From a virus, in the IMG/VR virus record IMGVR_UViG_3300030329_004160, positions 18,101-52,475 of that record: a stretch of 34,375 bases of DNA; one strand, written 5' to 3'. Each line of letters starts with the position of its first letter. Within the stretch, counting starts at the first letter, position 1. The translations under genes were made by a program, and so were the position numbers. Below are positions 12,830-33,883 of this stretch, piece by piece. The notes below the pieces were generated by a model, which had not been told where the DNA came from, did no database searches, and worked only from the letters and a program-made list of their open reading frames with translations.

Positions 12830-15800
12830 GTGGCTAACGGACAAGAACAAAATTTTCAACCTCAAATAGATGCTCAACAGACTCGTCAATACATTAAGAT
12901 GTATGGAGAGAGTCCTCATAGATTTAAACCTCAAGACTTAGAAGTTTTAAGATTACATGCTCAATATCATAATGTCCCTTTTTATGAAGGAGATTTTGGT
13001 ATTGTGGATTCAATTAAACAATTTGCTGGTGGTCTTATAGAAGGCTTTACTACTTTCAATGTAATAGATGAACCTCCTGATAATGAATACGAAGCTATAA
13101 TAAGAAGTATAGGTCATTTAGCTGGATTTGCTCCTGGCTTTGCAGCTGCTCCTATAAGAGGTTTAGGTGCTTTGACTAAATCTAGAACTTTATTAAGAAG
13201 TGCTAGAGCAATAGGTGGCGTTAAATCCGTTCCTCTTCTTGGTGCTGACTTTCTTACTAAAAGAGCTAAGAAAATAGCAAAACCAATCTTAAAAAATCTT
13301 CCTAATTCCAGATTTAAAGCAATGTCTGTTGCTTCTAAATTCTTACTTGGTAATAAAGCTAAGCATATTATGGAAGGAGCATTTCACTTAGGTGCTGCTA
13401 GTAGTATATCTACTTGGCAAGAAGGTGTTGATGGTATGATGCATAGTTTCTTTGGAGGTGCTGTAGCTGGTGGAGCTTTTGCTGGTATGGGTAATCTTAT
13501 TAATGTAGGTAATAAAAAAGCAAATGTATTTGCAAGAGGACTTGCAGGTAGTTTGTTCCAAGGTCTTCATTCTACAGCAAGAGGAGCAACTACTCCAGAA
13601 CAAATATATGAATACTTGCTAGGTGCTTATTTTGGAGGTGTTGCGAAGCCTTGGTTTAAAGTTAAAGCTAACAAAAACATTCAAAAAATGAATGAACAAG
13701 CTAAAAAAGACCCTAAAATGGAAATACAAAGAGACCCTGAATTACTTGAAGGATTTGCAGAGCAACCTGAAATAGTTCAAAAACATACAAAAGAATTAGC
13801 CAAAGAAATATTTGGCGATAGTGTAGAAAATGCTGGTATTGCTCATATGCTTATGGAAAGACTTGGCATTACAGATAAAATACCTGAAGAAAAGCTTACT
13901 ACTACTGGATATGAAATGCTTTCTAAGATTAAAAAGAAAATGAAGAAAAAAGATGGACCTGCTAAAATAATATCTATAGCTTTAGGAACAGGTGAAAAAG
14001 GGTTAACAGAGCAATTTTCTAAAGAATTAGAAAGAGCTGGTATCCCTGTTATTAATTATAAACCAGGCAAATCTAAACGAAGTCGAATAGGTGAAGATGT
14101 AGAATTAACTGAAAAAGAATTATTTGAACAGCAAGAAGCTATGAATACAGCTAATAAAACCCTTAGACATAGCTTGAAGAATATCGATGAATCGACTATG
14201 AGGCTTATTTTAAGAAGTATCTATCAATCTAATAAAGGGGATGCTGTCTTTGGAATAGGAGAAATAGAAAGGTCAAATAAAGATACTAAATTAAATGGAA
14301 GAACTATCAAAGATAAAAATGTCAAATGGGGTGTTCAATCTGCAGTAGATAAAAAGAAACCTATATACATATTTGATACTAAAAGTAACGTTTGGCATAC
14401 GTTTAATTATGACCCTAAAATTAAAAGATTTGAACCTATTAAAGAAGTACCAACCTTAACAAAGAAACCTGTTATATTAGCAGGTGGAAAGCCCAATCCT
14501 AATACTAAAAAAGCTATTAAAGATATTATAAAACAATCTATGGGGAAAGTTGTCAAGCAAACACCTCCTGGAAAAGATGAAAAGCGTACTTCTATAGCAG
14601 ATATGCCAGAGAGACATCCTGAGACATGGAATCAGTTATGGGATATTGCTAAAAGGAAAAAAGATTTATCTGAAAAGTTAGAGAAGGCAAATACTTCTAA
14701 AGAAATAGATAGATTGACCAAGGAATATGATGAATTGGTTAGCGAAGAAAGCTTGTTATTAGAATTAAGACCTACTGAATATATTGATATGGAAACAGGT
14801 GTTCTTATGAATGATATTGATACTGGTGGAAAATTAGATATACCAGTATTAATGAAAAAATCAGAGTATTTTGTAAGAACTCATTTGCCTCATTTATGGG
14901 TTAAGGAGGATAAACCTAGAGAATCTATGTTAAAGAGTGCTAAAATGGTTGAAGAAATTATATCTAAATATGAAGATTCGGGAAGTAAAGAAATCAAATC
15001 TGAGCAAGCCGTAAAAGATATAGAAACAGAATTAAATACAACATTAAAAGATACTGCTAAAGGAGAGATTCGTAGATGGATTAGAGAATTAAACTTGTCT
15101 AAACCTGTATCATTTATAAGAGTAGATTCTAAAGGCAATGTAAGTTTAACAGACCCTAATAGACCTAGAACATTATCAGGTAAGAATAAACTTGAAAAAG
15201 AACCTGTAAAAGAAATAGAAGTTGTTTATGAAGAGCAAGGTGGTAAATATAAAAAGGGAGCAAAAAGCGCTTATATTGTTTTAGATGCAGTATCAATTAG
15301 AGATGACAGAGGTATAATGATTGATGTACCTATTGATAAATTGGCTAAATATATTCAGTTTAATATTAAAACTAAAGGCAAAAGAGTATCAAAAAATAGT
15401 TCAGAATTAAAAGCTAGAGCTATTGTAGCAAAAGTTATAAAAACTATGGATAAAAAACACAATATGTATCCTGTTGGTGGAGTTGGAGATAAGTCTAGAA
15501 TTATATTTACAAAAGTACATCCTAAGTCTCGTGGCTCTAATATGCAAATTTTGAGAGATTTGGTTAAAATTAGGCGAGAATTAAGAAAAATAGACCCCAA
15601 CCATACTCAAATGTTTAAAAAGGCTAAAAAAGATGCATTTATAAATTATGGAATTGATGAAAAAACTTTCAATAAACTATTTCATTCTAATGTTATGTAT
15701 GATTTGTCTTTAAATGGATTTGATTTGACTCAAATAGATAAGATAATGGGTAAAGGATTTATAGGTAATCCTATTGCATATAATAAAAGAGCTCAAATAT

Positions 15801-18800
15801 GGTATACTCCATCTTTAGCTGCTGATAAAGTATTTATAAAAGACAAAATTAAAGATTTAGATAATGGTAATTTTGTTTACTCTCTTATAGGAGACCCTAG
15901 CAAACCCAAAGGTAAAACAAGTTTAGAAGCTTTAAATATAGAATTACCTGAACATGTAGATGGTGCTATATTAGTAAGAGATGATGTTGTAGATGTGTTA
16001 AACTTAGATGCAGGACATCCTATGTCTGGTCAGAATAAATCGTTTATTATAGACAAACATGGTGAATTAGGAACTATGCTTGGCAAATATATGATACATA
16101 AGGTAGGCTCTGAAGGTACTCAGCAAATGAAAGACCAAGGTGTTCATATGCTTATCATGACGTCTGCTGCTAAACAAACAGGATTAAGAGAAATAGGTGA
16201 TTACAATGTATCTGATAAAGGATTTGAATTAAAAGCTCCTAAGTATACTATGGACCCTGAATCTATTAAGTATAGTGGTTCTACAATACAAACACCTCAT
16301 ATGATGAAAAATCAAGTATGGGTAAAGCAATTATTTACAAACCTCCAACAATTTGGTCATAAAAAAATAGACAAGTCAATAATTAATAACATTGAAGAAG
16401 AGATTTTAGACAAAAGTTTTAAAGGTACAGATAAAGCTAACAAATTATTAGCTGATTATTTAACTGATTTTAATGAAAAGAAAATACCAGAGCTTTTAAA
16501 TTCATTAGAAGAAATAAGTAGTCAAGACTTAATATCTGCCTTAAAAACTCCTGGAGCAGAACGTTTTGCTGAAGGAGCTTTGCAAAGAATGTTAAAAGTA
16601 GTTGAGGAAAATATAGAATCTGATTATCAATCTGGATATATTTCATTAGCTGAAAAACAGTCTATGGTTAATGATTTAGTTGATTTTATATCGCCTGTAG
16701 ATAGGTTGATTAAAAATGCTGCTATTGTTGGAGAAGAAGCATCTTCAAAAGGAAAAATAGGTTTTTCTGCTTATCATCATAAACATATTAGAGATTATAA
16801 AAATGCAGTATTGCATAATTACTTTGTCAAATCGGTGACAAAACCAAAAGTATCTAACTCTATGGTAGCTAGAATGAGGCCTTATGATAAGTGGATGCAA
16901 AGAAAATTTGGAGATTTAAATACTAGAGATGATATATTTTACTTAGATGAAGCTTATAGAGCTGTTGAAATAGAAACATCATTTAAAGAAGCTCATTTAA
17001 AGAAGACTACTCTTGGAGTATTGTGGGATATGTATAGTAATAATAAGTTTAGCGGTCAAAGGAAAAAAGAAGTAGAAGAAATATTTGAAGCTGTAGTATT
17101 GCGTGTTCCTATGGATTCTATATCTGGTGCTCATAAACTTAAATTTAAAGGATTTACGGGCGTAGATGGGCATGGTATTATGATGCATTCAAGAAGTATG
17201 AGAGCATTAGGTGGTGCTGACCTTGATGGTGATGAAGCATTTGTCTATTTTGGAGGAAGAAGTCCTGATGGCAAAGGTGGAGGTATGAAAAAATCTTGGA
17301 AAGATGCTATTCATGCTCAAAAAGAAGAATTTTATAAAGGGGAAGGCTCTAAAAGAGATGTTGGAGATAATAAAAGAGAACTTATGAATCATCCAGAAGG
17401 AAAATATAAAGGAAAAACTTTTGCAGATGTATTAACAATATCTGCTGAAGGTGATAATCCTTTAAAGACAAGCAAAACTTTATACTATTCTCCATCAGCT
17501 AGATTAGAAGCTTCTCAAGGAGCTGTAGATGGAAGAAATAGGTTAGGACCTGCTGTTAATAATGGACAAATAATGAAATCTGTTTACAATTCTTTAATGG
17601 ATACTCCTGGAAAGATAGATGTTTTTGAAATTGATTTTTATAATAAAAAAACAAAGAAAAATGAAAAGCTTGTTATAGAAATAACTCCTAGAGAAGGTTC
17701 TGATTGGAATCGGTATCAAAGAGAAATGACAAGAGCTCAAATTGCATTTGCTTCTGACCCATTAGATGAAGCAGGTTTAGTTGAATCTGGAAAATTCTTT
17801 ACTTTATTGCATGATGGTTACTTTAAAACAAAGATATTAAATAATAAAGGAAAACAAGTTAAGAGAGAATTATCTCCTTTTCATCTTAAAAATGGATTAA
17901 TTGGTAAATTTATTGATATGAATTCAGCTTTTTTTGGTCGAAATTGGGATGCAAATAGAAGATATACTGCTGAAGAAGTTTCTGAGTTAAGTTCTGGTGT
18001 TTTAGATTTATTGCCTCAGCAAGTTAATACTATTTTGCCTAAAATGGTTAGAAAGCTTCATGGATTAGATTGGAGCGATAATATATTAAAAAGAATAAAT
18101 GAAAAAAGAGTAGAAGATTTATTCTTTGAAATGGAAGATATATCTGAATCATTTAAATGGTTGCAAGATATTATGGGGAGGGAGTCATTTAGAGTTCCTT
18201 ATAATAAATATGTACAAAATATTATTACATATGACTTGCAAGATATAACTAAACGAGAACAGTTTGCTTTTGATAATGCTTTATTTAGTAAAGCTATCAA
18301 AGGTACTACTTGGGAAAAAATAATAAAAAATCCTAAATATGCTGAATATTTAGCGAATGTTGACAAAAAATTTGAAATTCTCACACGTTTAACTCGTCAA
18401 GCTGAAGATTTTATATTAAATGATTTCACAGATATGGCAACGTTGTTAAATATGAAAAGAATTTTAGGGCAACATAAAATAAATGGCAAAAGAATAGGTT
18501 CTATATTTAGACAAGCTGAATTATTTAAAGCTCGTAGCTATTTAAATAAAAGAGAAAGAGATATATTAGATTTAGAAGTTTACCAAGGTACAAGCAAAGA
18601 AAAGGAAGCTCAAGAAGCTGTAGCTTTGGCTTCTAGGTATCGTGATTATTTACTTGGAAAAATAGATAAATATGAAAAAGATTTAGGTAAAAAAGGAGCT
18701 GAACGTTCTGCAACATTAGACCAAGCTATGCTTGATGTAAAGATAAAAGAATATAGGTCTAAACTCAAATCTACTGGAGAAAAAGATTTATTTGACCAAT

Positions 18801-21800
18801 TTATGATTGGTAGCTTAAATAGAGGTGATTTAGCTCACGTTCAAAAATTAATTGATAAAATACCTCAAAAAAAATGGAGTCCTATTATGTCTGATTTAGT
18901 TAATAAATTAGTCAAAGAAGGCTCTAGAACATCTTTAAGTAGATTAGCTATTAATTCTGAATCAATACCAGATGCTTCTATTAGAAATCATTTAAAAGCT
19001 TTAAATGATGTAATGGGTAAATCATGGGAGCGTCCTAGCAATAAAGATATAGAATCATCTATTAATAAAACTAGTAAAGCTGCTGATAAATCTATGGTTG
19101 AATTAGCGGATGGAACTAAAGTAAATCAAGAGCAAATTGAAGTTATGGAAATGGAAAGTTTGGTTAATGATGTTTTGGGTAATCAAAGAGGATATATTGG
19201 TATTAAAAAAGCAGATTTAAGACGAGCAGATAAAGAATTAATAACTGAATTAGCACAAAGATTGCAAAAATATAATAATAAATTAGGTAATAATCTTAAT
19301 GAAGTTTTAAGAGGTTTGATGGAAACAGCTACTGGTAGAGGTAAGGATTTAAATGCTTTCAATAGACAAGACTTTCAAATTGTTAATAATTTATTAAGAG
19401 AATATGAATCAGGTACTATGTTTCAAAGATTTTGGAGAGATTCTAGCCCAGATTTAAAAAAGAGATATACTATGTTATTTCCTGAAACTGTAGCTAGAGA
19501 ACAAATGAAGTATGATATACTTTGGCTTAAAAAAGAAGGTTATTATATAGATAAAAGCGGCAAACCCAAAAAAGGAATAGTTGCTAAACCTACTCATTAT
19601 GTAGAGGTTTTGTCTAATTGGATAAGTAAAACTAATAATTTAGCTACAGGGGAAGCTGAAAGAATGATAGTTGAGAATGGAGAAATATTCTTAAATTTAA
19701 ATTCTTTAAGAGAAGGTGATGCTCTTTTTAAAATTGCTAATGCTCAAAGAGAAGGTAAGTTTGCAGATATTATCGCAAATGATAAAACGAGACCTTTTTC
19801 TACTAGAAAGAATGATGCTAATACATATAGAATACATCAAAGAAATACTGAAAAAGAGTTTGAATGGGATAAATTAAAAGACAAAGAATTTACAATAACT
19901 AACGATAATGGTGAAAAAATAACAGCTACAGGTTTTGAAATAGTTAATGGCTCTCAACCTAAAAATTTAAAGGGTGTAAAAGATAAAATAACTGAACAAT
20001 TTAGAAATTTCAAAGTTCTTATTAATGGCACTCAGCGTCCAGAAGATACTAAATATTGGGCAGGAGATTGGTATGATAGATATCAAACGCAACCTAGAAT
20101 GAATTGGAAAAAGTTTATTGCAGATATGGAAACTGCTTATAATAAAGGTGAAAAACCTGGAATGGAATTAGGAATTGATGGAATGAGGCATATAGCTCGT
20201 TCTATGATGGTAGATTTAGCTCATAAAAGCAGAAAGAAAGAATTTCAGGATATTATAATTGATAAAACTGGACATATAGATTCTGATATGTATTTTCCTC
20301 ATATGTTCTTTTCAACAAAAGATGCTACTAAAGCTCTTCGTAGAGCTATTAAATCTATAAAAGAAGACCCTAATCTTTCTGATAAAATAGATAAGAAAAC
20401 AGGTATGTCTGAAAGACAAAAAGAACTTAATAATGTTGCTTTTAGACATAAAGTATTAACAGGTGATTGGGAATTTCAGGATATGCAAGATTGGGATAGA
20501 GTTGACCAATTAGATTATAAATCTACCTTAGAAAGTGTTGCTAAGAAAAAAAGAGAAAAAGGTGAACAAGTGCAATGGGTAACTAGTAATAAAAAGATGG
20601 GCTCTATGTTTTCAAGAAAAGGACATATTCCTGGCTGGGCAAATGATATAACTGTAATGAATGCTTATATAAGAAATGTAACAGGTGCTTATTATAGACA
20701 AGTTAATCAAATTATGTCAAGAAATGTTATGAATGAAGCTTGGAAAGGTCAAGTTAAGAAATTTGGACCAGAAGTTGCTGCTAGATGGCAAAATTGGTAT
20801 AAATTATATGTTCAAGGAGCTATGGGCAATCCCGATGTTATTCCAGAAGATATAATGATTGACTCTGGAATGAAATTAAAAGGAACTCCTTTTGCTTGGT
20901 GGGCTGACAATAAAGTATTGAAAAGAATAAATGGTATAAAAGAGTCTTTAGGTTTAGGTAAAGGAGATTTGCCAAAAGAATTAAGAGAATTTACTTATAA
21001 TGATATTCGTCTATGGTCTAATCTTGAGGCAAAGTTTGAATTAGCTTCTCTTTTAGCGCATCCAAAATCAGCTGTTAATAATATATTTGGTGGTTCCATG
21101 CATACTATAGAATCTGTTGGATTTAAGGCATGGAGAAATGCTAGAGATATAAGTTATTTAAGAAAAATTAATCCTGAATGGAAAACTAAAGAAGATGTTA
21201 TGAGGTTTGTTATTGAAAAAGGTGTGTTACCTGAATTCCTTGTACATGAATTAGGACTTGGAGCAAAAGTAAATAGAACCAAAATAACATCATTTGTCGG
21301 TGATTTGACAAATAAATTAATTGGGAATAAAGAAGTTAATAAAAGCGATATACTAACTTTAGGAAAAAAACATGGATTGACTGATGCTATTGTTGATAAA
21401 GCAGCTATGTTTATGACTATTCCTGAAAGAGCTTTAAGAAGAGATGCTTTTATGGCTCATTATATAAGAGCTTGGGAAAGATTTGGAGGTGCTATTAAAG
21501 ACCCTAATCATCCATTTTTAATTGAAATGGGATTAAAAGGTGTTAAAGCTACACAATTTTTATATGATGCCCCTAATCGACCTTTATTTGCAAGAACTGC
21601 TCTTGGTAAAATAATGACAAGATTTCAATTATGGTCTTGGAATTCTGTAAAATTTAGAAATGATGTGAGAAGAGAAGCTAGAATACATGGTTATAAACCA
21701 GGTACAGAAGCTTATGAAAGATTTAAAAGAACAATGCAAATGGATTTATTTGTATTAGCTTTAGGTAATATATTTATGTATAGCTTATTTGAACAAGCTT

Positions 21801-22150
21801 TACCAGCTCCATGGAATTGGTTTCAAGATACATCAGAATGGTTGTTTGGCGATGAAGAAGCTAGAGATAAAGCTTTTTTTGGCAATTTACCTGGAGCTAT
21901 AGCTCCTTTACAAATAATAACTCCTCCTATTTCAAGATTTCCTATAACAGGTTTGTCTCAATGGATAAGAAATGATTATGATAAATTTACCGACTATACT
22001 ATGTATACTTTATTACCATTTGGAAGAATAGTTAGAGATGTAGTTCATCCAGAAAAAGGACTAATTAATAATCCTTTAATGGTTATGGAAAAAACTATGG
22101 GACTTCCTTTATTGCAATTAGCAAAATATGCTAAGGATAGAGATGAGTAA
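12830..22150 (+). CDS. Giant (3106-residue) virion protein with RNA polymerase-type active site; candidate virion RNA polymerase
   Basis: Starts at GTG 12830 with no clear ribosome site. Residues about 60-230 contain Gly/Ala-rich hydrophobic stretches. Residues about 375-565 look like a SLOG-type Rossmann domain: G-D-A-V-F-G-I-G (470-477), then K-K-P-I-Y-I-F-D (509-516) with a following W, then A-G-G-K-P-N. At 1044-1115 come V-D-G-A-I-L-V, lysines K1086 and K1091, and T-S-A-A-K (K1115), fitting the first double-psi barrel. At about 1425-1475, an R-V-P segment, G-H-G-I-M-M-H and G-G-A-D-L-D-G-D (DLDGD 1464-1468) match the second barrel, whose aspartates hold the catalytic magnesium in RNA polymerase beta-prime, QDE-1 and crAss-like virion polymerases. 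The rest is helical, with a final segment rich in W and P near residue 2990. Activity is not proven. Confidence 0.75.
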   Translation: MANGQEQNFQPQIDAQQTRQYIKMYGESPHRFKPQDLEVLRLHAQYHNVPFYEGDFGIVDSIKQFAGGLIEGFTTFNVIDEPPDNEYEAIIRSIGHLAGFAPGFAAAPIRGLGALTKSRTLLRSARAIGGVKSVPLLGADFLTKRAKKIAKPILKNLPNSRFKAMSVASKFLLGNKAKHIMEGAFHLGAASSISTWQEGVDGMMHSFFGGAVAGGAFAGMGNLINVGNKKANVFARGLAGSLFQGLHSTARGATTPEQIYEYLLGAYFGGVAKPWFKVKANKNIQKMNEQAKKDPKMEIQRDPELLEGFAEQPEIVQKHTKELAKEIFGDSVENAGIAHMLMERLGITDKIPEEKLTTTGYEMLSKIKKKMKKKDGPAKIISIALGTGEKGLTEQFSKELERAGIPVINYKPGKSKRSRIGEDVELTEKELFEQQEAMNTANKTLRHSLKNIDESTMRLILRSIYQSNKGDAVFGIGEIERSNKDTKLNGRTIKDKNVKWGVQSAVDKKKPIYIFDTKSNVWHTFNYDPKIKRFEPIKEVPTLTKKPVILAGGKPNPNTKKAIKDIIKQSMGKVVKQTPPGKDEKRTSIADMPERHPETWNQLWDIAKRKKDLSEKLEKANTSKEIDRLTKEYDELVSEESLLLELRPTEYIDMETGVLMNDIDTGGKLDIPVLMKKSEYFVRTHLPHLWVKEDKPRESMLKSAKMVEEIISKYEDSGSKEIKSEQAVKDIETELNTTLKDTAKGEIRRWIRELNLSKPVSFIRVDSKGNVSLTDPNRPRTLSGKNKLEKEPVKEIEVVYEEQGGKYKKGAKSAYIVLDAVSIRDDRGIMIDVPIDKLAKYIQFNIKTKGKRVSKNSSELKARAIVAKVIKTMDKKHNMYPVGGVGDKSRIIFTKVHPKSRGSNMQILRDLVKIRRELRKIDPNHTQMFKKAKKDAFINYGIDEKTFNKLFHSNVMYDLSLNGFDLTQIDKIMGKGFIGNPIAYNKRAQIWYTPSLAADKVFIKDKIKDLDNGNFVYSLIGDPSKPKGKTSLEALNIELPEHVDGAILVRDDVVDVLNLDAGHPMSGQNKSFIIDKHGELGTMLGKYMIHKVGSEGTQQMKDQGVHMLIMTSAAKQTGLREIGDYNVSDKGFELKAPKYTMDPESIKYSGSTIQTPHMMKNQVWVKQLFTNLQQFGHKKIDKSIINNIEEEILDKSFKGTDKANKLLADYLTDFNEKKIPELLNSLEEISSQDLISALKTPGAERFAEGALQRMLKVVEENIESDYQSGYISLAEKQSMVNDLVDFISPVDRLIKNAAIVGEEASSKGKIGFSAYHHKHIRDYKNAVLHNYFVKSVTKPKVSNSMVARMRPYDKWMQRKFGDLNTRDDIFYLDEAYRAVEIETSFKEAHLKKTTLGVLWDMYSNNKFSGQRKKEVEEIFEAVVLRVPMDSISGAHKLKFKGFTGVDGHGIMMHSRSMRALGGADLDGDEAFVYFGGRSPDGKGGGMKKSWKDAIHAQKEEFYKGEGSKRDVGDNKRELMNHPEGKYKGKTFADVLTISAEGDNPLKTSKTLYYSPSARLEASQGAVDGRNRLGPAVNNGQIMKSVYNSLMDTPGKIDVFEIDFYNKKTKKNEKLVIEITPREGSDWNRYQREMTRAQIAFASDPLDEAGLVESGKFFTLLHDGYFKTKILNNKGKQVKRELSPFHLKNGLIGKFIDMNSAFFGRNWDANRRYTAEEVSELSSGVLDLLPQQVNTILPKMVRKLHGLDWSDNILKRINEKRVEDLFFEMEDISESFKWLQDIMGRESFRVPYNKYVQNIITYDLQDITKREQFAFDNALFSKAIKGTTWEKIIKNPKYAEYLANVDKKFEILTRLTRQAEDFILNDFTDMATLLNMKRILGQHKINGKRIGSIFRQAELFKARSYLNKRERDILDLEVYQGTSKEKEAQEAVALASRYRDYLLGKIDKYEKDLGKKGAERSATLDQAMLDVKIKEYRSKLKSTGEKDLFDQFMIGSLNRGDLAHVQKLIDKIPQKKWSPIMSDLVNKLVKEGSRTSLSRLAINSESIPDASIRNHLKALNDVMGKSWERPSNKDIESSINKTSKAADKSMVELADGTKVNQEQIEVMEMESLVNDVLGNQRGYIGIKKADLRRADKELITELAQRLQKYNNKLGNNLNEVLRGLMETATGRGKDLNAFNRQDFQIVNNLLREYESGTMFQRFWRDSSPDLKKRYTMLFPETVAREQMKYDILWLKKEGYYIDKSGKPKKGIVAKPTHYVEVLSNWISKTNNLATGEAERMIVENGEIFLNLNSLREGDALFKIANAQREGKFADIIANDKTRPFSTRKNDANTYRIHQRNTEKEFEWDKLKDKEFTITNDNGEKITATGFEIVNGSQPKNLKGVKDKITEQFRNFKVLINGTQRPEDTKYWAGDWYDRYQTQPRMNWKKFIADMETAYNKGEKPGMELGIDGMRHIARSMMVDLAHKSRKKEFQDIIIDKTGHIDSDMYFPHMFFSTKDATKALRRAIKSIKEDPNLSDKIDKKTGMSERQKELNNVAFRHKVLTGDWEFQDMQDWDRVDQLDYKSTLESVAKKKREKGEQVQWVTSNKKMGSMFSRKGHIPGWANDITVMNAYIRNVTGAYYRQVNQIMSRNVMNEAWKGQVKKFGPEVAARWQNWYKLYVQGAMGNPDVIPEDIMIDSGMKLKGTPFAWWADNKVLKRINGIKESLGLGKGDLPKELREFTYNDIRLWSNLEAKFELASLLAHPKSAVNNIFGGSMHTIESVGFKAWRNARDISYLRKINPEWKTKEDVMRFVIEKGVLPEFLVHELGLGAKVNRTKITSFVGDLTNKLIGNKEVNKSDILTLGKKHGLTDAIVDKAAMFMTIPERALRRDAFMAHYIRAWERFGGAIKDPNHPFLIEMGLKGVKATQFLYDAPNRPLFARTALGKIMTRFQLWSWNSVKFRNDVRREARIHGYKPGTEAYERFKRTMQMDLFVLALGNIFMYSLFEQALPAPWNWFQDTSEWLFGDEEARDKAFFGNLPGAIAPLQIITPPISRFPITGLSQWIRNDYDKFTDYTMYTLLPFGRIVRDVVHPEKGLINNPLMVMEKTMGLPLLQLAKYAKDRDE

Positions 22151-26844: not shown

Positions 26845-27031
26845 AACCTTTTTCTCCTTCTAGTTCTATTTTACTATCATAAGTTAAAATAAATTGAAAC
26901 TGAAATCTCCATATTCCAAATAAAATACCTCTTACATAAGATTCTGGATGAACAGCCCCTATTGTAAATAATTTAAATAACTTTATTCCTGTAAAATTGC
27001 TTAATATTAATATTTGTAATAACCATCCCAT
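26837..27031 (-). CDS. 64-residue hydrophobic protein, unknown
   Basis: ATG overlaps the stop of the primase-helicase gene (TAATG). The protein is largely hydrophobic and aromatic (W-L-L-Q-I-L-I-L-S, then G-I-L-F-G-I-W-R-F-Q-F-Q-F-I-L), with a charged end (E-L-E-G-E-K-G). It could insert in a membrane as one or two short helices. No family recognised; support comes from the tight coupling. Confidence 0.45.
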   Translation of the reverse strand: MGWLLQILILSNFTGIKLFKLFTIGAVHPESYVRGILFGIWRFQFQFILTYDSKIELEGEKGYA

Positions 27032-28791
27032 TATAGCTTCCTCCTCATTCTAAAAGTTGGAGTCCATTCAATTTCGCAATCAAATAATTCTCCATCTGTG
27101 TTTTTAAATAACCTGACTTCTCTATCAGGTTTGTCTGACTGTCCATTTAAACCTATAACTTTTCTGGATGCGTTTTCTATTGCTCCACTTCCTTTTCCAG
27201 CATATAAGTCAAGAACTTCGTTTCTGCTATACTCTCTGCTTACTTGGGATATCTGTATTATTATAATGTCCATATTTACAGCTAAATTTGATAATCCATG
27301 ACTGATTTGTTTTATCTTTTCATGCTCTCCTCCATATGTTTTAGAGGTATCTATCAAATCTATATAATCTATAACTACTAATGACGGTTGTAATTCTCTT
27401 ACTTTCTCTGTTATTCCCTGTAATGTAGGGCTTATTGTTTGTACGTTTAAGTGAGCTAACTCGTCTTTATGGTCTTCGTAAATATCATCATAATTCTCGT
27501 TTATATCTTCTTTAGTGCATCCTGACACTATTTGCATATGTCTTCTATGAACATACCAAGAAGATAGCTCTAAACTTAGAAATAATGTAGGTATTTGCCA
27601 ATCTGTATTTATTTCATTTTTAACAAAATCTACCCCTAACACCATATTTTGGACAAATGTTGTTTTATTTGACCCTGTAGGCCCAAATACAGTGACTAAT
27701 TCACCTGGATATATAATTGATTCCTTTTTAACACCGAGCATTTTACCTAAATTAATAGTTTTCCCTGTGAAATCAGTTGTCAATCTATCTCTAAGCTCTC
27801 TTTGCATTTGTTCTGCTGTTTTAACATCTATAAAGTAATCTTTATGTTGAAAATGTATACATTGAGTTTTACAATGGTCTTTCATTACTGTATCTTGACA
27901 ACCATACCTGTAATTTCTATTATATACATTCTCTACCATTTCATTAAGACTTGTTTCATTCATGCTTTTATTATTCCAATGAAGCATAGACACTTTACAA
28001 TAATGACTTGGAATACCATGTCTTTTAAAATGGCTTATTATTCTCATAGCCGTTATATGTCTATTACCTTCATTTGGTCCTTTATTTAACATTGATTGAA
28101 CGCAAGGTATTAATGTTGTTGGCTCTGATACTTTGTTAAATACTTTAATATCAGGTACTTCTTGGACTACTTTATTCTCTAGCTCCCCATCTCCTATTAA
28201 CTCATGATATTTAAAGTCTAATCGCTGAGTTTTAGCTAATTCAAATATTTCTTTAGGCGTTAAATTCATTACTTCATCTTTAGTCAAAGGTATCTTATAA
28301 AGATTTGTCTTTTGATTAACAGTATGCTGAATTCTATATATACCTGTTCTCATATAAATACTTAAATCTACTTCAGGAAACAAGCTTCTCATTGTTTGCT
28401 TTACTATATAAGGTAAATCGGGACTTTCTTTAAAATTGAATAAATCTCCTGATAACATTAAGTGATATCCAGAACCAGAGAAGAAAGGTTGGAAGCTCCC
28501 ACAACCAATCTCTCCCTCCTCTAATTCCATTAAAATGCTTCTCAAGATATCAAGAGTTTTTTCATCAGAATTATCTTTTTTATCTATATCTATAGGTATC
28601 TTATCTATAGACCTAACTCCAAAATAATTCTTTAAAGAACCTGTTTTATCAACAAATTCTTTAGCTGTTTGCTCATAGAGGTACACTGACCTGTATATAG
28701 GTTCGTCAGTAGATATATATTTGACTAAGTGTGTGTGAGGAATCAATATACCTCTATTTGCTGGAGTTCCTCTTGCTATCTCTACATACAT
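27031..28791 (-). CDS. Archaeo-eukaryotic-type primase fused to DnaB-like helicase
   Basis: A 586-residue replication protein. The N-terminal half has primase-polymerase (AEP) motifs: I-D-I-D (D68, D70), S-G-S-G-Y-H (105-110) and downstream P-E-V-D...R-T-G-I-Y-R. A middle region has C230, C299, C307 and C311, which could hold an iron-sulphur cluster or zinc as in primase C-terminal domains. From about 340 there is a RecA-fold helicase: Walker A G-P-T-G-S-N-K-T-T (370-378), Walker B L-V-V-I-D-Y-I-D-L-I-D (471-481), Q-I-S-Q-V-S-R (513-519) and G-S-G-A-I-E-N-A (534-541). It should unwind DNA and make primers at the fork. Start and stop both overlap their neighbours as TAATG. Confidence 0.88.
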   Translation of the reverse strand: MYVEIARGTPANRGILIPHTHLVKYISTDEPIYRSVYLYEQTAKEFVDKTGSLKNYFGVRSIDKIPIDIDKKDNSDEKTLDILRSILMELEEGEIGCGSFQPFFSGSGYHLMLSGDLFNFKESPDLPYIVKQTMRSLFPEVDLSIYMRTGIYRIQHTVNQKTNLYKIPLTKDEVMNLTPKEIFELAKTQRLDFKYHELIGDGELENKVVQEVPDIKVFNKVSEPTTLIPCVQSMLNKGPNEGNRHITAMRIISHFKRHGIPSHYCKVSMLHWNNKSMNETSLNEMVENVYNRNYRYGCQDTVMKDHCKTQCIHFQHKDYFIDVKTAEQMQRELRDRLTTDFTGKTINLGKMLGVKKESIIYPGELVTVFGPTGSNKTTFVQNMVLGVDFVKNEINTDWQIPTLFLSLELSSWYVHRRHMQIVSGCTKEDINENYDDIYEDHKDELAHLNVQTISPTLQGITEKVRELQPSLVVIDYIDLIDTSKTYGGEHEKIKQISHGLSNLAVNMDIIIIQISQVSREYSRNEVLDLYAGKGSGAIENASRKVIGLNGQSDKPDREVRLFKNTDGELFDCEIEWTPTFRMRRKL

Positions 28792-29390
28792 TATAGGTTA
28801 GACAATCCACTTCCTTCTAATGAGTTTCCACTTGATTGTGTTGGCTCATCAGAGGCTTCTTTGATTATCCCTTTACCTTTTAACCATTTAACATCATCCG
28901 CTAATTTATTCTTATTTGCTTCGCTATTCTCATATATTTTATGATAAACTCTTGTCCAAGCTTTATCACCTATTTTCTTTGGCTTTTCTTTGTATACATA
29001 TGCAATATAATCCATATTTTCTTTATCTGGCATAGGATTAACCCATTGCTCGTTTAGATATGTGTCTATTTCAGCAATTTCATTACCCTCTGCATCTTCC
29101 CAGCCACCTTTTACATTTAATCCACATTTACAACCTATTGCATCAAAGAACGTGTACATTCTTTTAAGAACGCTTCCACCAGTTATATCTCCACTAGCAT
29201 CTTTATCAAAAGAACCTGCTAATTTAATATTTCTAGTATATTCACTACCTTTTTGTTGCACTGTAACATCAAGAAAAACATCAGCCCAATCAAACTCTTC
29301 GCTTCTGTCTTTAAAGTTTAGTATATTTATTTCACATACTCCAAAGAAATTACTTCCTCCGCTTCCCATTGTTGGTCTAAAAATAGCCAT
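28791..29390 (-). CDS. Putative single-stranded DNA-binding protein
   Basis: A 199-residue protein, beta-rich in the first 130 residues (F-F-G-V-C-E-I-N-I-L, D-W-A-D-V-F-L-D-V-T-V, T-R-N-I-K-L-A-G-S-F), then a helical segment and a Ser/Gly-rich tail ending S-G-L-S-N-L. It lies between a Sak4-type ATPase and the primase-helicase with TAATG junctions on both sides. In many phages a single-strand DNA-binding protein of this size occupies exactly that place and works with Sak4. No clear OB-fold signature can be proved by eye, and the usual acidic end is weak, so the function is inferred mainly from context. Confidence 0.55.
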   Translation of the reverse strand: MAIFRPTMGSGGSNFFGVCEINILNFKDRSEEFDWADVFLDVTVQQKGSEYTRNIKLAGSFDKDASGDITGGSVLKRMYTFFDAIGCKCGLNVKGGWEDAEGNEIAEIDTYLNEQWVNPMPDKENMDYIAYVYKEKPKKIGDKAWTRVYHKIYENSEANKNKLADDVKWLKGKGIIKEASDEPTQSSGNSLEGSGLSNL

Positions 29391-30064
29391 TATTTCTTCT
29401 CCTTCTTATATATATTTTTCCAATTAAGTTCCATCTCTTTGCCTCTCAGATGAGGACTTCTACTACCTGCTTCTAATGCATCATTTGACTTGAAAGAAAC
29501 CATTAAACTATCAGTTTCTTCATCTCTATATACATAGCCTATAGCATCGCAATCAGCCATTAACATATTCTTTAATTTGCCTGTTAAATCTAAACTTTCA
29601 GGTTCTACTAAAGCTTTGCTTTCTACTACTGCTCTTGCCCATTTTCTATGTCCTATAATGATAGTATAGTCAAATAAAGAACTTATAGCATCTACTGTAT
29701 TAAGGACTTTTTCTCTAACTAAACCAAAACCCTTACCATAAGCTAAATCAGCTATATTTGCTACATTTTCGTCTTTACAGACTGCTTTCTCTGCCCATTC
29801 TGCTATTTTATCTATTGTATCTATAGCTGCATAGCTATATTCATGCCCTTGTTGAGCTTCTTTTAATAGAGTTATTAACTCTTCTCTACTATTTACTGAT
29901 TCCACATAGCCTTCTATCATATTAGCTCCTTGCTCTGTATCAATTATCAAACAATCTTTTAATTGACTAAGAGCTGTAGTTTTACCTACTTTAGGTGCTC
30001 CATATAGTAAAAGTTTTTTAGGATTTTCAGAAATAGCTTTTCTTTTGACTTTTTTAAGTGCCAT
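29390..30064 (-). CDS. Sak4-like RecA-fold recombination ATPase
   Basis: A 224-residue protein with Walker A G-A-P-K-V-G-K-T-T (22-30), an I-D-T-E-Q-G segment (41-46) and Walker B Y-A-A-I-D-T-I-D (78-85). This is the AAA_24/Sak4 family of short RecA-like phage proteins that anneal or load recombinase on single-stranded DNA. The size is typical. Good ribosome site (AGGAG) upstream of ATG 30064. Its 5' side is the structured element 30094-30204, so this gene may open a new processed mRNA segment. Downstream it is coupled to the putative single-strand-binding gene. Confidence 0.85.
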   Translation of the reverse strand: MALKKVKRKAISENPKKLLLYGAPKVGKTTALSQLKDCLIIDTEQGANMIEGYVESVNSREELITLLKEAQQGHEYSYAAIDTIDKIAEWAEKAVCKDENVANIADLAYGKGFGLVREKVLNTVDAISSLFDYTIIIGHRKWARAVVESKALVEPESLDLTGKLKNMLMADCDAIGYVYRDEETDSLMVSFKSNDALEAGSRSPHLRGKEMELNWKNIYKKEKK

Positions 30065-30093: not shown

Positions 30094-30204
30094 GGGCTCA
30101 AGAGAACCTCACATATTCCTTTGCCTACATAGCTGGCGATACAAGCTATTACACCTTACCGAGGTATAGGACTTATAGGACCAGTTGTTGGCTCTCTCAA
30201 GCTC
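30094..30204 (-). ncRNA. Structured intergenic element C (multi-hairpin, 15-position closing stem)
   Basis: Bases 30094-30108 pair with 30190-30204. As minus-strand RNA 14 of 15 positions pair (three G-U); as plus strand only 12, so a minus-strand RNA fits better. Inside are a 6-base hairpin ATAGCT/AGCTAT (30129-30134/30144-30149), a 4-base hairpin ACCT/AGGT (30153-30156/30162-30165) and a tandem 9-base near-repeat TATAGGACT/TATAGGACC (30165-30182). It fills the gap between the E1-like and Sak4-like genes. Function unknown; mRNA processing, antitermination or regulation are options. Confidence 0.6.
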
Positions 30205-30220
30205 GTTAACTTACAATACT

Positions 30221-30889
30221 TTAATATTTAAAACAACTATTTTTTTGTAATGTCATAGTAGGAAAGTTAAATGACAAAGCGACTTCGTATGGTTGTTTTG
30301 TCACAACCTTCCGAATGGTATTTGCTATAAAACTTCCAGCCATGTTACTACAATAACTAGTTGCTTTCATATTGCAAGGTTCTTCACTACCAGACTCGTC
30401 TGAATACCAAGTCTTTTCATACTTTGCTAAGGAAGGAGCAATAAAAGTATATTGTTGATAGTGTTCTGCTCCCATTCTACCATCTATTAGTAGAAAAGGT
30501 TTAGCATATTTATATTTAGTTAAAGCTTTAACAGCTTGCATTCTAACTTCCATACTGTCAAAACCTAATATAATTATGTCATTCTCATTCATATATATGT
30601 AATCTTTAAACATATTCTCATCACAGATTATTTCTGCTGAATCATTAATCTCTTTAAGATGTCCTTTTAACATATCTACTTTCAAATGACCAATATCATA
30701 TATTCTATATTGAGATACACCTATATTAGGTGATTCTACTTTATCCATATCATATAATGCGAATTTATCTGCACCCATTCTGGCTAGTTGAATGGCTGCG
30801 GAACTACCTATAGCCCCGCAACCAAGTATATGAAAGTTATACTCGCTAAGATTGTCAACTAACCCTTTGCTACGAGTATTAATTTCCAT
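30221..30889 (-). CDS. E1-like (ThiF family) adenylating enzyme of a ubiquitin-like system
   Basis: A 222-residue protein. ATG 30889 is chosen because GGAGGAGG lies just upstream; an in-frame ATG at 30922 has none. ThiF/E1 features in order: nucleotide loop G-C-G-A-I-G-S (23-29), D47-M-D49-K-V, S-P-N-I-x-V-S-Q, D-I-G-H-L-K (ending K70), F-D-S-M-E-V-R (110-116), I-D-G-R-M-G, and candidate catalytic cysteine C172 in E-P-C-N-M-K-A-T. It should adenylate the C-terminal glycine of the ubiquitin-like protein (33406-33618) and pass it on through a thioester. It overlaps the JAB gene by 11 bases. It is a short E1 without extra domains, as in PRTRC-type systems. Confidence 0.85.
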   Translation of the reverse strand: MEINTRSKGLVDNLSEYNFHILGCGAIGSSAAIQLARMGADKFALYDMDKVESPNIGVSQYRIYDIGHLKVDMLKGHLKEINDSAEIICDENMFKDYIYMNENDIIILGFDSMEVRMQAVKALTKYKYAKPFLLIDGRMGAEHYQQYTFIAPSLAKYEKTWYSDESGSEEPCNMKATSYCSNMAGSFIANTIRKVVTKQPYEVALSFNFPTMTLQKNSCFKY

Positions 30890-31808
30890 ACCAACCTCCT
30901 CCAAAACTTTCATTCCAACCATTATATACTATTTTATCTCTTAGAACTTCATCTTCCCATTCAAACATATCTCCAGGAAAAATAGTCATTAACTCATTCA
31001 TAACTGTTTGTCTACTTCCTTTAATATGTTTTACTTTAAATGGTAATTTGTTATTTTTACAGATTTTATTTATTTCTTTAATATTTCTTTTGTAATCTGC
31101 AAAACTCATGCTACCATCAACTAAACCATCCATACAATGTTCCAATTTATTTTCTGCTTGTTTGTAATAGTTTTCCATAACCAAGTCATTTTCTTTTTGA
31201 AACAAAGTATCTTGTTTATTATATCTAGTATATCCGCTATATATAATACTTTTATTACCATGATGATGAATAACATTTCTTTCACTACAAAGCTCTTTAT
31301 ATTGCTTTTCCATATCTTTAGTAATATTAATCTTAGGTTTACTTCTTTCTATTGTAAGATTTGTATCATAATGTTTATTAATAGGTATACCATTAGCTTT
31401 CCAAACACTTACTCTAAAAACATATTCTTCCTTAAGATTGATAACTAATGCCAAAGAATAACTATCATTTTCCCAAGCTTCTATCTCTTTAATATCAGTT
31501 CCTGACCAAAATGCACCCATAGTATGATGTGAATGCCACCAAACAAACTTCATATTAGTATCTTTATACTTCATAGCTTGTTTCATTGTATAATCTGTGA
31601 CTGCTTGTCCATCAAGTTCTGTATTGCTACCTGTATTTTCTTGCTTGAGTATTTCTACATCACTTAATTTAAAACGACCATCTTCTTGTGGTACAGCTGT
31701 CATTAATCCTGATATTTCATTTTTATCTTTATCATAAGCTATTGTAGCCCATGCTTGAAGTTTATACCAATCTTTCTCTGGTATATAGAACATATTTTCT
31801 AATTCCAT
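30879..31808 (-). CDS. JAMM/JAB-domain metalloprotease, deubiquitinase-like
   Basis: A 309-residue protein. ATG 31808 is used because AAGGAG lies six bases upstream and it overlaps the E2 stop (TAATG). The JAMM signature is complete: E31 (in N-E-I-S-G), then H92-S-H94-x7-S102-x-x-D105, in W-W-H-S-H-H-T-M-G-A-F-W-S-G-T-D. This zinc site cleaves isopeptide or peptide bonds after a ubiquitin-like Gly-Gly. Residues about 150-300 are a Lys-rich helical extension unlike a bare JAB domain, perhaps for substrate or partner binding. With E1, E2 and Ubl next to it, it probably removes the modifier from targets; the Ubl already ends in GG, so a maturation role is not needed. Confidence 0.87.
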   Translation of the reverse strand: MELENMFYIPEKDWYKLQAWATIAYDKDKNEISGLMTAVPQEDGRFKLSDVEILKQENTGSNTELDGQAVTDYTMKQAMKYKDTNMKFVWWHSHHTMGAFWSGTDIKEIEAWENDSYSLALVINLKEEYVFRVSVWKANGIPINKHYDTNLTIERSKPKINITKDMEKQYKELCSERNVIHHHGNKSIIYSGYTRYNKQDTLFQKENDLVMENYYKQAENKLEHCMDGLVDGSMSFADYKRNIKEINKICKNNKLPFKVKHIKGSRQTVMNELMTIFPGDMFEWEDEVLRDKIVYNGWNESFGGGWYGN

Positions 31809-33280
31809 TACTCGCTCCTTCCTGGACTTGTCGCCCATTTCATCATTTTATCTTTTATATCTTTTTCAGCTTCTACTTCTTCTCCATAATATTTAATAGA
31901 TTGCAAGCCATACTCTATATAATCATTAGTAAGACCTCTTTTAAATAATATTAACCAAATACTATGATATAAATGCTCCATATTCATTTCATTTGATACA
32001 TCATAATCATAATCATATAAAGGATGAAGACCTGTTATTTCTTCAAACTTTGTTTTAGCATCATAAAAACTCAAAGATTTATAATATTCTATTAAAGCAC
32101 CAAAATATGATTCCATTTGATGTCTATACTCTGAATCTTGATATTTATCAAGTATATAAACAGCATCTAGATTAACTTTACATGAATTCATAGCACTACA
32201 ATTTACTTCTTCACATGCTTTTAATAATGATAATGAATTATTAATATCTTTATCAACATTATATTTAGTATGCATAGAACGTGAACAACTATTAATATAT
32301 TCTTGACTTCCTAATGCTTTATATTCTTTGCTAAAACTATCTGGCATTCCTATATGGAAGAATTGAATTTTATTATATGGATGACTATATTGATTATGAT
32401 AATATTGTGCCCAACTTAATAAATGATATTGCAAAGATGTAAAATCATTCTTTTTAAAGCTATTGTAAATATCATCTTGGTAACTACTTAAACATACTGC
32501 ACCATAATGATTATAATTACTTCGTGCTGAAATATAAGGATGCTTTAAATGGCTACCTAAGGATGAATGATAACAGCCACTCATACCAAATCCTTTTGAT
32601 GTGCCACCTATATGTTCTCTTAAGTTTTTAGATGCAATTATTCTTATAAAACTATCTTTTTCAGATTCTATTCTTTGAATAAGCTTTGCATCTTTCTTTC
32701 CATCATAAACAAGTATGTTTATATCTCTTAGGTGAATTTCATATAATAACTGTGTTTGTCTTATTTCTTTTTGTACCGTGATATATGGTTTAATTTCCAC
32801 TTTACCATTTGATAAATTATAAGCTAAATCACATTGTGTATTAATTGTATCAACTAATTTAATAGTTTCTTCTTTAAAATCATCAATATTTACATTTCTT
32901 GGATATCCATCTTGCTTTAAATAAAATTTGTCAATTTCTAGCTGTCTAGCTTGACGAATAATATAATTTAAATAATTAGATTCATCTTTAGTTCTTGCCA
33001 ATTTATGATGAATACCTTTTGATTTTTTATGAACCTTTAGTCTTTTAAGTAAAAACTCATCTATTTTATTATATGTTCCTGGTCTCCAATTCCATTTATC
33101 TGTAACATCAATAGAATCAATACCATAATGTTCTAAAACATTATTAAAACTTTCTAATTCTTGGAAAAACTTATTTTGTGGACCGACTGCTATAGCATTT
33201 GCCATATCTTGCGTTAAATCTCTTAATACATCTATATTTGTTACTTCTTTTAAACTACTTCCCCAGCTTACTGTTTCCAT
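31808..33280 (-). CDS. E2-like (UBC superfamily) conjugating protein
   Basis: A 490-residue protein between Ubl and JAB. At 247-265 it has H-P-Y-I, a short loop, then Y-G-A-V-C-L-S: the HP...G-x-[IV]-C-L pattern of E2 enzymes, with C263 as candidate thioester cysteine. Beta strands before it (about 160-210, E-I-K-P-Y-I-T-V through I-L-V-Y-D-G-K) and a helical segment after it (D-F-T-S-L-Q-Y-H-L-L-S-W-A-Q-Y-Y) fit the E2-like fold of bacterial Prok-E2 families. H247-C263 spacing is about 7 residues longer than in eukaryotic E2s. Residues 1-150 and 320-490 are unassigned and may choose targets. AGGAG precedes ATG 33280. Remote by sequence; context raises the confidence. Confidence 0.65.
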   Translation of the reverse strand: METVSWGSSLKEVTNIDVLRDLTQDMANAIAVGPQNKFFQELESFNNVLEHYGIDSIDVTDKWNWRPGTYNKIDEFLLKRLKVHKKSKGIHHKLARTKDESNYLNYIIRQARQLEIDKFYLKQDGYPRNVNIDDFKEETIKLVDTINTQCDLAYNLSNGKVEIKPYITVQKEIRQTQLLYEIHLRDINILVYDGKKDAKLIQRIESEKDSFIRIIASKNLREHIGGTSKGFGMSGCYHSSLGSHLKHPYISARSNYNHYGAVCLSSYQDDIYNSFKKNDFTSLQYHLLSWAQYYHNQYSHPYNKIQFFHIGMPDSFSKEYKALGSQEYINSCSRSMHTKYNVDKDINNSLSLLKACEEVNCSAMNSCKVNLDAVYILDKYQDSEYRHQMESYFGALIEYYKSLSFYDAKTKFEEITGLHPLYDYDYDVSNEMNMEHLYHSIWLILFKRGLTNDYIEYGLQSIKYYGEEVEAEKDIKDKMMKWATSPGRSE

Positions 33281-33301
33281 ATTCTTCTTTCTCCTGTTTT
33301 A

Positions 33302-33397
33302 TTAAATGAGAGAGGTTACACAAACAGAGTTACACTGTTCCACCTCATACCTGCCGCTAAGCAACCTCGAAGGTTCCCCCTCACCTCTCTCATTTAA
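33302..33397 (-). ncRNA. Structured intergenic element B (15-base perfect closing stem)
   Basis: Bases 33302-33316 are the exact reverse complement of 33383-33397, 15 pairs closing 96 bases. Inside are two perfect 5-base hairpins: AACAG/CTGTT (33323-33327/33335-33339) and AACCT/AGGTT (33363-33367/33371-33375). It fills the gap between the Ubl stop and the E2 ribosome site. There is no U-run, so it is not an ordinary terminator. It could be a processing or partial-termination site that lets Ubl be made in excess over the enzymes. Confidence 0.65.
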
Positions 33398-33405
33398 ATG
33401 TTTAA

Positions 33406-33618
33406 TTACCCACCAACTTTGTTATTGCTAGTGAATGCTACAACTGCATCATCTGCAATTGGAAAGTCATTTAATCTAACTTCTCCATTTACATTAACTT
33501 GTGCGTCTGCAGGTATATCTAACTCATTTCTGAGCTCTCCTACATTAGTTGAGCTAACATCACGCCTATTAAATGCTCCATTATCTAATAAGCTTATACT
33601 TCTACTATCATTTGCCAT
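33406..33618 (-). CDS. Ubiquitin-like (MoaD/ThiS-type beta-grasp) modifier ending in Gly-Gly
   Basis: A 70-residue protein with AGGAGG seven bases before ATG 33618. Reading order fits a beta-grasp: strand S-I-S-L-L, loop, helix N-V-G-E-L-R-N-E-L, then V-N-V-N-G-E-V-R, L-N-D-F-P-I-A-D-D-A-V-V-A-F and a flexible end N-N-K-V-G-G at the true C-terminus (stop directly after the two glycines). V-N-G-E followed by D-D-x-V-x-F is the MoaD/ThiS pattern. A bare GG tail means it is ready for adenylation. With E1, E2 and JAB following, it is most likely the conjugated protein. A sulphur carrier is the alternative; the E2-like protein argues against it. Confidence 0.82.
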   Translation of the reverse strand: MANDSRSISLLDNGAFNRRDVSSTNVGELRNELDIPADAQVNVNGEVRLNDFPIADDAVVAFTSNNKVGG

Positions 33619-33628
33619 ATTTGGCCTC

Positions 33629-33883
33629 CTATTCTGCTAGTTTTGTTAAAAACACTTTACCTCTCCAATCAAATACATGTCCATCGCCATACATTGTATA
33701 CATTTGGCTAAATGCTTCATCAAATGTTAAAGCATCAAATCCTGTCCATTTATTTTCAATGATTTCTACTTGCTCATCTACTATTATTTCTTTTTCAGGT
33801 TCATTATTTATAGCTTTACCTAAAATATAAAAACCAAATATTGCTATTACTATTTCTCGCCAATAACTAAACAATTTATTCAT
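33629..33883 (-). CDS. Membrane-anchored protein with phage F-x-W-x-G-K motif
   Basis: An 84-residue protein with a hydrophobic segment at about 10-24 (I-V-I-A-I-F-G-F-Y-I-L-G), a Glu-rich linker, then F-D-E-A-F-S-Q-M-Y and H-V-F-D-W-R-G-K-V-F-L-T-K. The short ending A-F-x-x-x...F-x-W-x-G-K-x-[YF]-T is a repeated motif of small phage proteins of unknown role. It is 10 bases upstream of the Ubl gene and coupled to the gene before it, so it is co-made with Ubl. It may be a membrane target or docking partner of the modifier (inference). Confidence 0.6.
   Translation of the reverse strand: MNKLFSYWREIVIAIFGFYILGKAINNEPEKEIIVDEQVEIIENKWTGFDALTFDEAFSQMYTMYGDGHVFDWRGKVFLTKLAE

Follow-up and report, generated by a model that had tools for sequence, protein, structure and literature searches.

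The window analysed here is a stretch of 34,375 nucleotides covering bases 18101-52475 of the 52,475-base IMG/VR phage record IMGVR_UViG_3300030329_004160. It carries four consecutive genes that are predicted to encode a ubiquitin-like modifier (Ubl), an E2-like enzyme, a JAB/JAMM peptidase and an E1-like enzyme. Judging from sequences and structure models, these genes probably specify a protein-conjugation pathway of the phage itself, which would be a core part of the replication operon in a large lineage of uncultured tailed phages. Sequence, fold and joint conservation show the machinery itself; from it we infer, by analogy, thioester transfer, conjugation and deconjugation. An earlier sequence-only reading of this DNA had proposed a complete Ubl-E2-JAB-E1 cassette in phage use, a proposal now supported by linkage and by the catalytic residues. 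The positions of the four open reading frames (ORFs) confirm that they are co-directional on the minus strand, and neighbouring genes overlap, those of the Ubl and the E2-like protein alone being separated, by about 125 nt:

33406..33618, minus strand: Ubl of 70 aa, ending K67-V-G-G (KVGG), mature as encoded
31808..33280, minus strand: E2-like enzyme of 490 aa, with a putative UBC-like core at about residues 135-311, candidate catalytic C263 and a C-terminal four-Cys cluster
30879..31838, minus strand: JAB/JAMM metallopeptidase, with E41, H102, H104, S112 and D115
30221..30922, minus strand: E1-like ThiF adenylating enzyme, with catalytic Cys C183 (C172 from an inner start)

The strict linkage of these genes across related phages is central to the argument. 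Scans of viral contigs gave 49 loci by E1, and profile scans gave 310 by JAB and 362 by E1, the best 80 of each being kept; linkage was then counted in 82 distinct loci. The E2 gene is present in 52/52 loci with more than 1.8 kb upstream of the JAB gene, the E1 gene in 73/73 with more than 0.8 kb downstream of it, and all 49 with room upstream of E2 have a small ORF whose product carries [KRM]-x-G-G at the C-terminus or close to it. A second sample was chosen by the downstream helicase, to avoid selecting by the cassette itself, and it contains E1 in 44/44, JAB in 40/40, E2 in 29/29 and a Ubl with GG in 29/29 (three of these read by eye). As the loci are related to each other and the sets share members, these counts do not represent independent events. 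Nevertheless, an artefact or a chance association of the four genes can be rejected in view of their strict co-occurrence, and the identical gene order recurs in dozens of diverged phage loci. No loss of the cassette was found among the sampled members of the lineage. Because it is never missing in the helicase-chosen sample, a core function in the replication operon fits better than a patchily distributed defence or anti-defence cargo. In the bacterial genomes searched, only two weak Bradyrhizobium relatives and no host or prophage form were found.

The assignment of the E1 is secure from its sequence. The protein matches ThiF in Pfam (4.1e-20), in agreement with the original description of a ThiF/E1-like enzyme, and a profile built from 30 sequences matches UBA6, MccB, UBA5, MoeB, Cap2 and BubCD (BubCD at 8e-5). 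Both the ATP site and the catalytic Cys expected of an E1 are present: GxGxxG, D58, N66, K81 and D122 are retained, and the position of C183 holds a Cys in 59/59 aligned sequences, which include phage, PRTRC, E1-E2-fusion and MoeB/ThiF proteins. In the same alignment, C191 is special to the lineage of the window phage. The residue formerly named C172 is the right one when counted from the inner ATG at M12, although it is C183 in the numbering of the longest ORF; a start at M12 leaves an 11-nt overlap with the JAB gene, as in the relative L002.

The JAMM assignment of the peptidase can likewise be called secure. While its Pfam matches stay below the cut-offs (Prok-JAB 1.6e-4, JAB 1e-3), its profile matches a solved Rpn11-like JAMM protein (2.1e-5) and yeast Rpn11. 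The full H102-x-H104-x7-S112-x2-D115 site is exact, as had been read, with E41 in addition, and all five residues are invariant in 27 aligned sequences. These invariant ligands, together with the precursor tails of the Ubl in relatives, fit a peptidase of Ubl maturation or deconjugation.

The AlphaFold2 model of the Ubl, built with 18 sequences (predicted local distance difference test, pLDDT, 82), has the beta-beta-alpha-beta-beta-beta order of a beta-grasp, the fold that had been anticipated for this gene. Its best structural matches are Mth1743 (Z 8.3), ThiS (8.1), TtuB, MoaD and many ubiquitins, within a Z range of 8.3-7, and the family libraries searched gave no family match. K67, G69 and G70 are invariant in the 18 sequences. 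The combination of beta-grasp fold and GG end is that of Ubl conjugation cascades, and the GG is found in 49/49 loci: in 30 of them K-x-GG is followed immediately by the stop codon, and in the other 19 by 1-117 variable residues. Among such tails are DAR (L033), NLN (L035), KIAFEEYLSA (L036), SALLLNTID (L029) and one of 117 aa (L030). Because a constant GG carries a variable, dispensable tail, as in pro-ubiquitin, these forms would be Ubl precursors trimmed by the JAMM peptidase, and the tails are the best sequence evidence for a pairing of the JAMM protein with the Ubl and for the GG as the reactive end. The Ubl of the window ends at GG and needs no trimming, and therefore the JAB would there serve deconjugation. 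The 117-aa domain fused behind the GG (L030:2288-2878) matches DUF7303 weakly (E 0.055).

The 490-aa protein would act as the E2. Its model (pLDDT 82) presents a helix at 132-156, strands at 161-238, C263 and two helices after it, which is the order of the UBC fold. In a second look with VIA-align, the best 19 rows were all E2, UEV or UFC1 proteins, aligned mostly over residues ~135-311 with Z 5.0-6.0 and a root-mean-square deviation of 3.4-4.7. The consistent match list and the invariant Cys make a UBC-like core credible, such Z-scores alone being weak. In 78 sequences, C263 is conserved in 78, W290 in 77 and P301, within [NH]P[YL]N, in 78. The motif HP...G-x-x-C-L, on which the sequence-only reading had relied, has thus held for its Cys; its HP is not invariant, being HP in 44/78 and FP in 30/78, although P248 is kept in 77/78. 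The four-Cys cluster C332/C356/C361/C367 (C-x23-C-x4-C-x5-C) is complete in 48/78 and mostly lost together elsewhere, which suggests a metal site at residues 332-367. Searches of the phage collection at the DNA and protein levels gave no match to this protein. With Foldseek it matches the 420-aa viral model A0A1B0WLX5 (E 1.8e-3, prob 0.99), which equals in length the cognate protein of Flavobacterium phage Fpv1 (420 aa).

From these parts, a cycle of four steps can be proposed. In a first step, needed in the tailed relatives, the JAMM peptidase would trim Ubl precursors to ...K-x-G-G. The E1 would then adenylate the GG end of the Ubl and load the Ubl on C183. C263 of the E2 would receive it and hand it on to lysines of target proteins, the Zn-type cluster and the extra helical regions of the E2 probably standing in for an E3. 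Finally, the JAMM peptidase would take the tag off again. As for the targets, the position of the genes points to replication/recombination or host-takeover proteins, tagged reversibly early in infection; if the pathway is what we propose, this assignment has a little less than an even chance of being right.

Relatives of the cassette are present in phages that have been annotated and, in part, cultured. A tblastn search with the window E1 gave matches in 77 annotated phage records, most of them from Crassvirales or Flavobacterium phages; the E1 homologues there are annotated as thiamine biosynthesis protein or E1 enzyme family protein, the JAB as metalloprotease and the rest as hypothetical. 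In crAss001 the order is gp79 (Ubl-like), gp78 (Cys protein), gp77 (metalloprotease) and gp76 (ThiF), adjoining genes for DNA primase and uracil-DNA glycosylase; gp79 has a beta-grasp-like N-terminus ending KKIKSG with a long tail after it, and gp78-type proteins have an invariant HSH and Cys. The crAss001-type JAB occurs in 74 records, which include the B. thetaiotaomicron phages DAC15 and DAC17 (where the JAB alone was looked at). By hhalign, the window and crAss proteins are homologous for the E1 (99.9% at 4e-36) and for the JAB (96.9% at 2e-10). A tree of E1s separates those of the window lineage and of crAss and Flavobacterium phages, on one side, from PRTRC, fused E1-E2 and bacterial ThiF/MoeB proteins (93/91, not decisive). 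Two insertions were observed along the way: in cr106_1 (L056:1734-2937) an HNH endonuclease gene cuts the Ubl-like gene directly after KSG-KF, at the end of the beta-grasp domain, and in Fpv1 (L052:3653-5945) an opposite-strand endonuclease gene cuts the JAB gene just before the catalytic HSH.

Several points weigh against a complete conjugation pathway. No E3, target or conjugate is known for the cassette. The family libraries hold no E2 family model that matches the 490-aa protein, its Foldseek search against the PDB gave no match, and the protein has HPY, without the Asn, in place of the HPN of canonical E2s. The support for an E2 fold consists of moderate Z-scores (5-6.0), the invariant Cys and the context; the E2-like core that had been proposed around C263 is favoured by the E2, UEV and UFC1 proteins heading the structural matches, and qualified by their scores and by the empty PDB search. 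In addition, hhalign detects no homology of the window Ubl and E2 to the crAss-type Ubl and E2, so that a one-to-one correspondence of the four parts with those of crAss phages would be drawn, for these two, from position, motif and length only.

It could also be postulated that the Ubl and E1 make a ThiS/MoaD/TtuB-like thiocarboxylate that thiolates a phage or host molecule, with the JAB trimming the precursor and the 490-aa protein serving as sulfurtransferase or scaffold. Such a sulfur-carrier system would agree with the nearest folds of the Ubl, ThiS, MoaD and TtuB among them, and with PRK08644 and thiF_fam2 as the best NCBIfam models for the E1. It is very improbable nonetheless: the E1 scores far under the curated ThiF/MoeB cut-offs (78 vs 159 bits for PRK08644, 48 vs 275 bits for adenyl_thiF), genes for rhodanese, cysteine desulfurase or tRNA thiolation were not recognised among the cassette neighbours searched, and the model of the invariant-Cys protein has a UBC-like core. 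The exclusion of rival phages, one of the uses suggested initially, would consist in tagging their virion proteins in a Bil-like manner. The Bil system tags phage structural proteins, and the early-region position of the cassette would suit such a role, which we nevertheless regard as improbable, given that a lineage-wide cassette would be present in the closest rivals too and that it lies in the replication operon and not among accessory genes.

Attachment of the Ubl to the phage's own structural proteins, as a step of virion maturation, has a precedent in the pairing of the Ub-like TAPI with the JAB protein TAPK that Iyer et al. 2006 proposed for lambda-type tails (PMC1779556). The core conservation of the cassette is in line with this possibility; its location among replication genes and on the other strand than the structural block makes it unlikely. 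The other use suggested initially was interference with a host Ubl defence, in which the cassette would jam or reverse an antiphage system such as Bil or Cap2/Cap3 of the cyclic oligonucleotide-based antiphage signalling system (CBASS), for example with the JAB as deconjugase and the Ubl or E1 as decoys. Host systems of like parts do exist (PMC10097602, PMC11153139), and the JAB has complete active-site ligands. A decoy, however, needs less than a whole pathway with all its catalytic residues. Anti-defence genes are usually patchy, and the sampled lineage shows no cassette loss; we give counter-defence as slim a chance as the exclusion of rivals. Both uses keep a small probability, but universal presence in the helicase-chosen sample fits a core function better than both.

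The transcript of the cassette contains two structured RNA elements:

33302..33397, minus strand: RNA hairpin in the Ubl-E2 gap, with a 15-bp perfect closing stem, minimum free energy -36.6 kcal/mol and z -4.3
30102..30205, minus strand: structured RNA motif that recurs in related phages, here between the E1 and Sak4-like genes, GCCAAYAACUGGUCCU...AGGCAAAGGAAUAUGUGAGG

Of the perfect inverted repeats listed for the window, the stem of this hairpin is the longest. Closing stems of at least 10 bp occur in 42/45 Ubl-E2 gaps of relatives, with 27 different arm sequences, i.e., with compensatory changes. No U-run follows the hairpin in the window; it may be a hairpin of the RNase III or mRNA-end type that serves differential expression. 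The second element has the form GCCAAYAACUGGUCCU-(N)UAAGUCC...AGGCAAAGGAAUAUGUGAGG within a variable closing stem and is found in 24 distinct copies in related phages (L063:4427-4508, L087:4326-4403 and L124:4248-4331 among them) that, where placeable, lie upstream of the Ubl gene or in one of the two gaps, Ubl-E2 or E1-ATPase. A search of Rfam gave no match to it, and it looks like an undescribed phage RNA element. The two elements split the transcript around E2-JAB-E1, a division that would let the modifier be made in excess over the enzymes.

The minus-strand block that holds the cassette and the replication genes runs from ~33.9 kb down to 24.1 kb, in the order small membrane-anchored protein, Ubl, E2-like, JAB, E1, Sak4-like AAA_24 ATPase, 199-aa protein, DnaB_C primase-helicase and an endonuclease VII/HNH-like gene. 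The replication-block setting claimed at the outset was right, as the ATPase and the DnaB-type primase-helicase are among the next downstream genes:

33629..33883, minus strand: small membrane-anchored protein directly before the Ubl gene, its N-terminal hydrophobic stretch read from the sequence
29390..30064, minus strand: AAA_24/Sak4-like ATPase, the next operon gene after E1 (Pfam AAA_24 1.9e-24; phrog_124 Sak4-like 7e-32)
28791..29390, minus strand: conserved 199-aa protein, kept in its position between the Sak4-like and helicase genes
27031..28791, minus strand: primase-helicase with DnaB_C (1.1e-15; phrog_19 9.5e-29)

The small membrane-anchored protein has relatives upstream of the Ubl gene in 15 loci, is kept in near relatives and has a conserved F-D-W-R-G-K-x-(F/Y)-L-T-K end. 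Searches of the family libraries found no family for the 199-aa protein, which at a guess may be a single-stranded DNA-binding protein. In L247 (1985-2935), a close sibling of L249, an IS110-like transposase is encoded upstream of the Ubl gene (Transposase_20, E 0.003, narrowly missing the cut-off), and a related phage contig has a sub-threshold tRNA-Sec match (L023:1237-1312, 38.2 vs 47 bits). On the plus strand are the structural genes, which start to the left of the window and extend into it:

plus strand: large terminase subunit (phrog_38, 5e-90)
plus strand: P22-like portal (phrog_156, 2e-84)
plus strand: major head protein (phrog_1328, 3e-18)

They are followed by giant proteins of 2805 aa (1811-10228) and 3106 aa (12830-22150) with no confident family. 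The 2805-aa protein matches E1_FCCH below the threshold (1.5e-4), in what is likely a beta-rich segment of a virion protein.

Ubl conjugation in bacteria is known from experiments mainly as a weapon against phages. A complete core cascade in phages reverses this view and raises the question of what a virus tags in order to replicate its DNA. We see about an even chance that entire tailed-phage lineages, among them cultured crAss-like and Flavobacterium phages, run a complete and reversible Ubl pathway that is obligatory for genome replication, a viral Ubl code not derived from host defence in which at least two unrelated Ubl/E2 pairs would work on a common E1 and JAB. The chemistry is known; what would be new are the Ubl and E2 families, the phage as owner and the core instead of accessory setting. 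No description of a complete cassette in a phage was found in the open-access literature; subscription papers and supplements lay outside this scope, and a prior description is possible. Likewise, none of the open-access papers searched links crAss phages to ThiF and ubiquitin, and the main texts of the crAss papers examined, supplements aside, are without these words; the many 'JAB' matches in one crAss paper come from the phage name 'jaberico'. The crAss-like members are among the best-known human gut phages, and since related E1+JAB cassettes exist in cultured Bacteroides and Flavobacterium phages, the question can be tested now.

Operons of Ubl, E2, JAB and E1 have been predicted in prokaryotes since 2006 (PMC1779556), and for phages the part of that paper used here mentions the lambda TAPI/TAPK pair only. 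In layout the cassette resembles PRTRC (operon type 6d), which has separate Ubl, E2, JAB and ThiF genes in a like order (Ubl - F - E2 - JAB - ThiF in bacteria); the likeness noted earlier stands for the order, the F gene aside, and fails for membership. PRTRC is bacterial, with extra F and E genes and ParB, and membership has to be rejected, as the curated cut-offs are widely missed (E1 23.1 vs 144.75 bits for PRTRC_ThiF, TIGR03736; JAB 13.4 vs 101.8 bits for PRTRC_A, TIGR03735) and PRTRC ThiFs fall outside the phage E1 group. According to Iyer et al. 2006 (PMC1779556), the type 6d E2 has an absolutely conserved His C-terminal to the Cys; the likely equivalent position 300 is N in 64/78 of the E2-like sequences. 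The W-x9-HP that follows the Cys in the PRTRC E2 has its counterpart in an invariant phage pattern W-x9-[HN]-P of equal W-to-P spacing, which speaks for the E2 core. The hhalign comparisons of the window E2 and Ubl with their PRTRC counterparts were not significant, and the one with PRTRC_B sets Cys on Cys and HP on HP. As for ParB, two ParB queries run with phmmer matched nothing in the window, and a ParB_N-domain gene upstream of the Ubl gene, recalling the PRTRC link, is present only at L249 (142-888) and L158 (2046-2729).

With type II CBASS, where conjugation is established (PMC10097602, PMC11153139), the phage cassette would share E1/E2 chemistry and a JAB deconjugase, and its E1 profile matches Cap2. 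The proposed likeness to Bil and CBASS is thus borne out for the parts, but not for their arrangement: E1 and E2 are separate genes here and fused in Cap2, and the conjugated protein is there the CD-NTase itself, here a free Ubl. No CD-NTase was found among the cassette neighbours scanned, the whole record not having been searched for one. Bil/Bub operons share the Ubl, E1, E2 and deubiquitinase parts, with BubCD also matched by the phage E1 profile, and differ in being host defence operons; the PADLOC E1-E2 models give partial matches, confined to the E1 stretch. Lambda TAPI/TAPK likewise pairs a phage Ub-like protein with a JAB protein (PMC1779556), yet without E1 or E2 and among tail assembly genes. 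Finally, Crassvirales and Fipvunavirus (crAss001 gp79-gp76 and the cognates of Fpv1) have in common with the window phage a homologous E1 and JAB, the gene order and a place beside replication genes (primase/uracil-DNA glycosylase in their case), whereas their Ubl forms the N-terminal domain of a longer protein and ends ...K-S-G(-A/G/N), and their E2-like protein has HSH...C.

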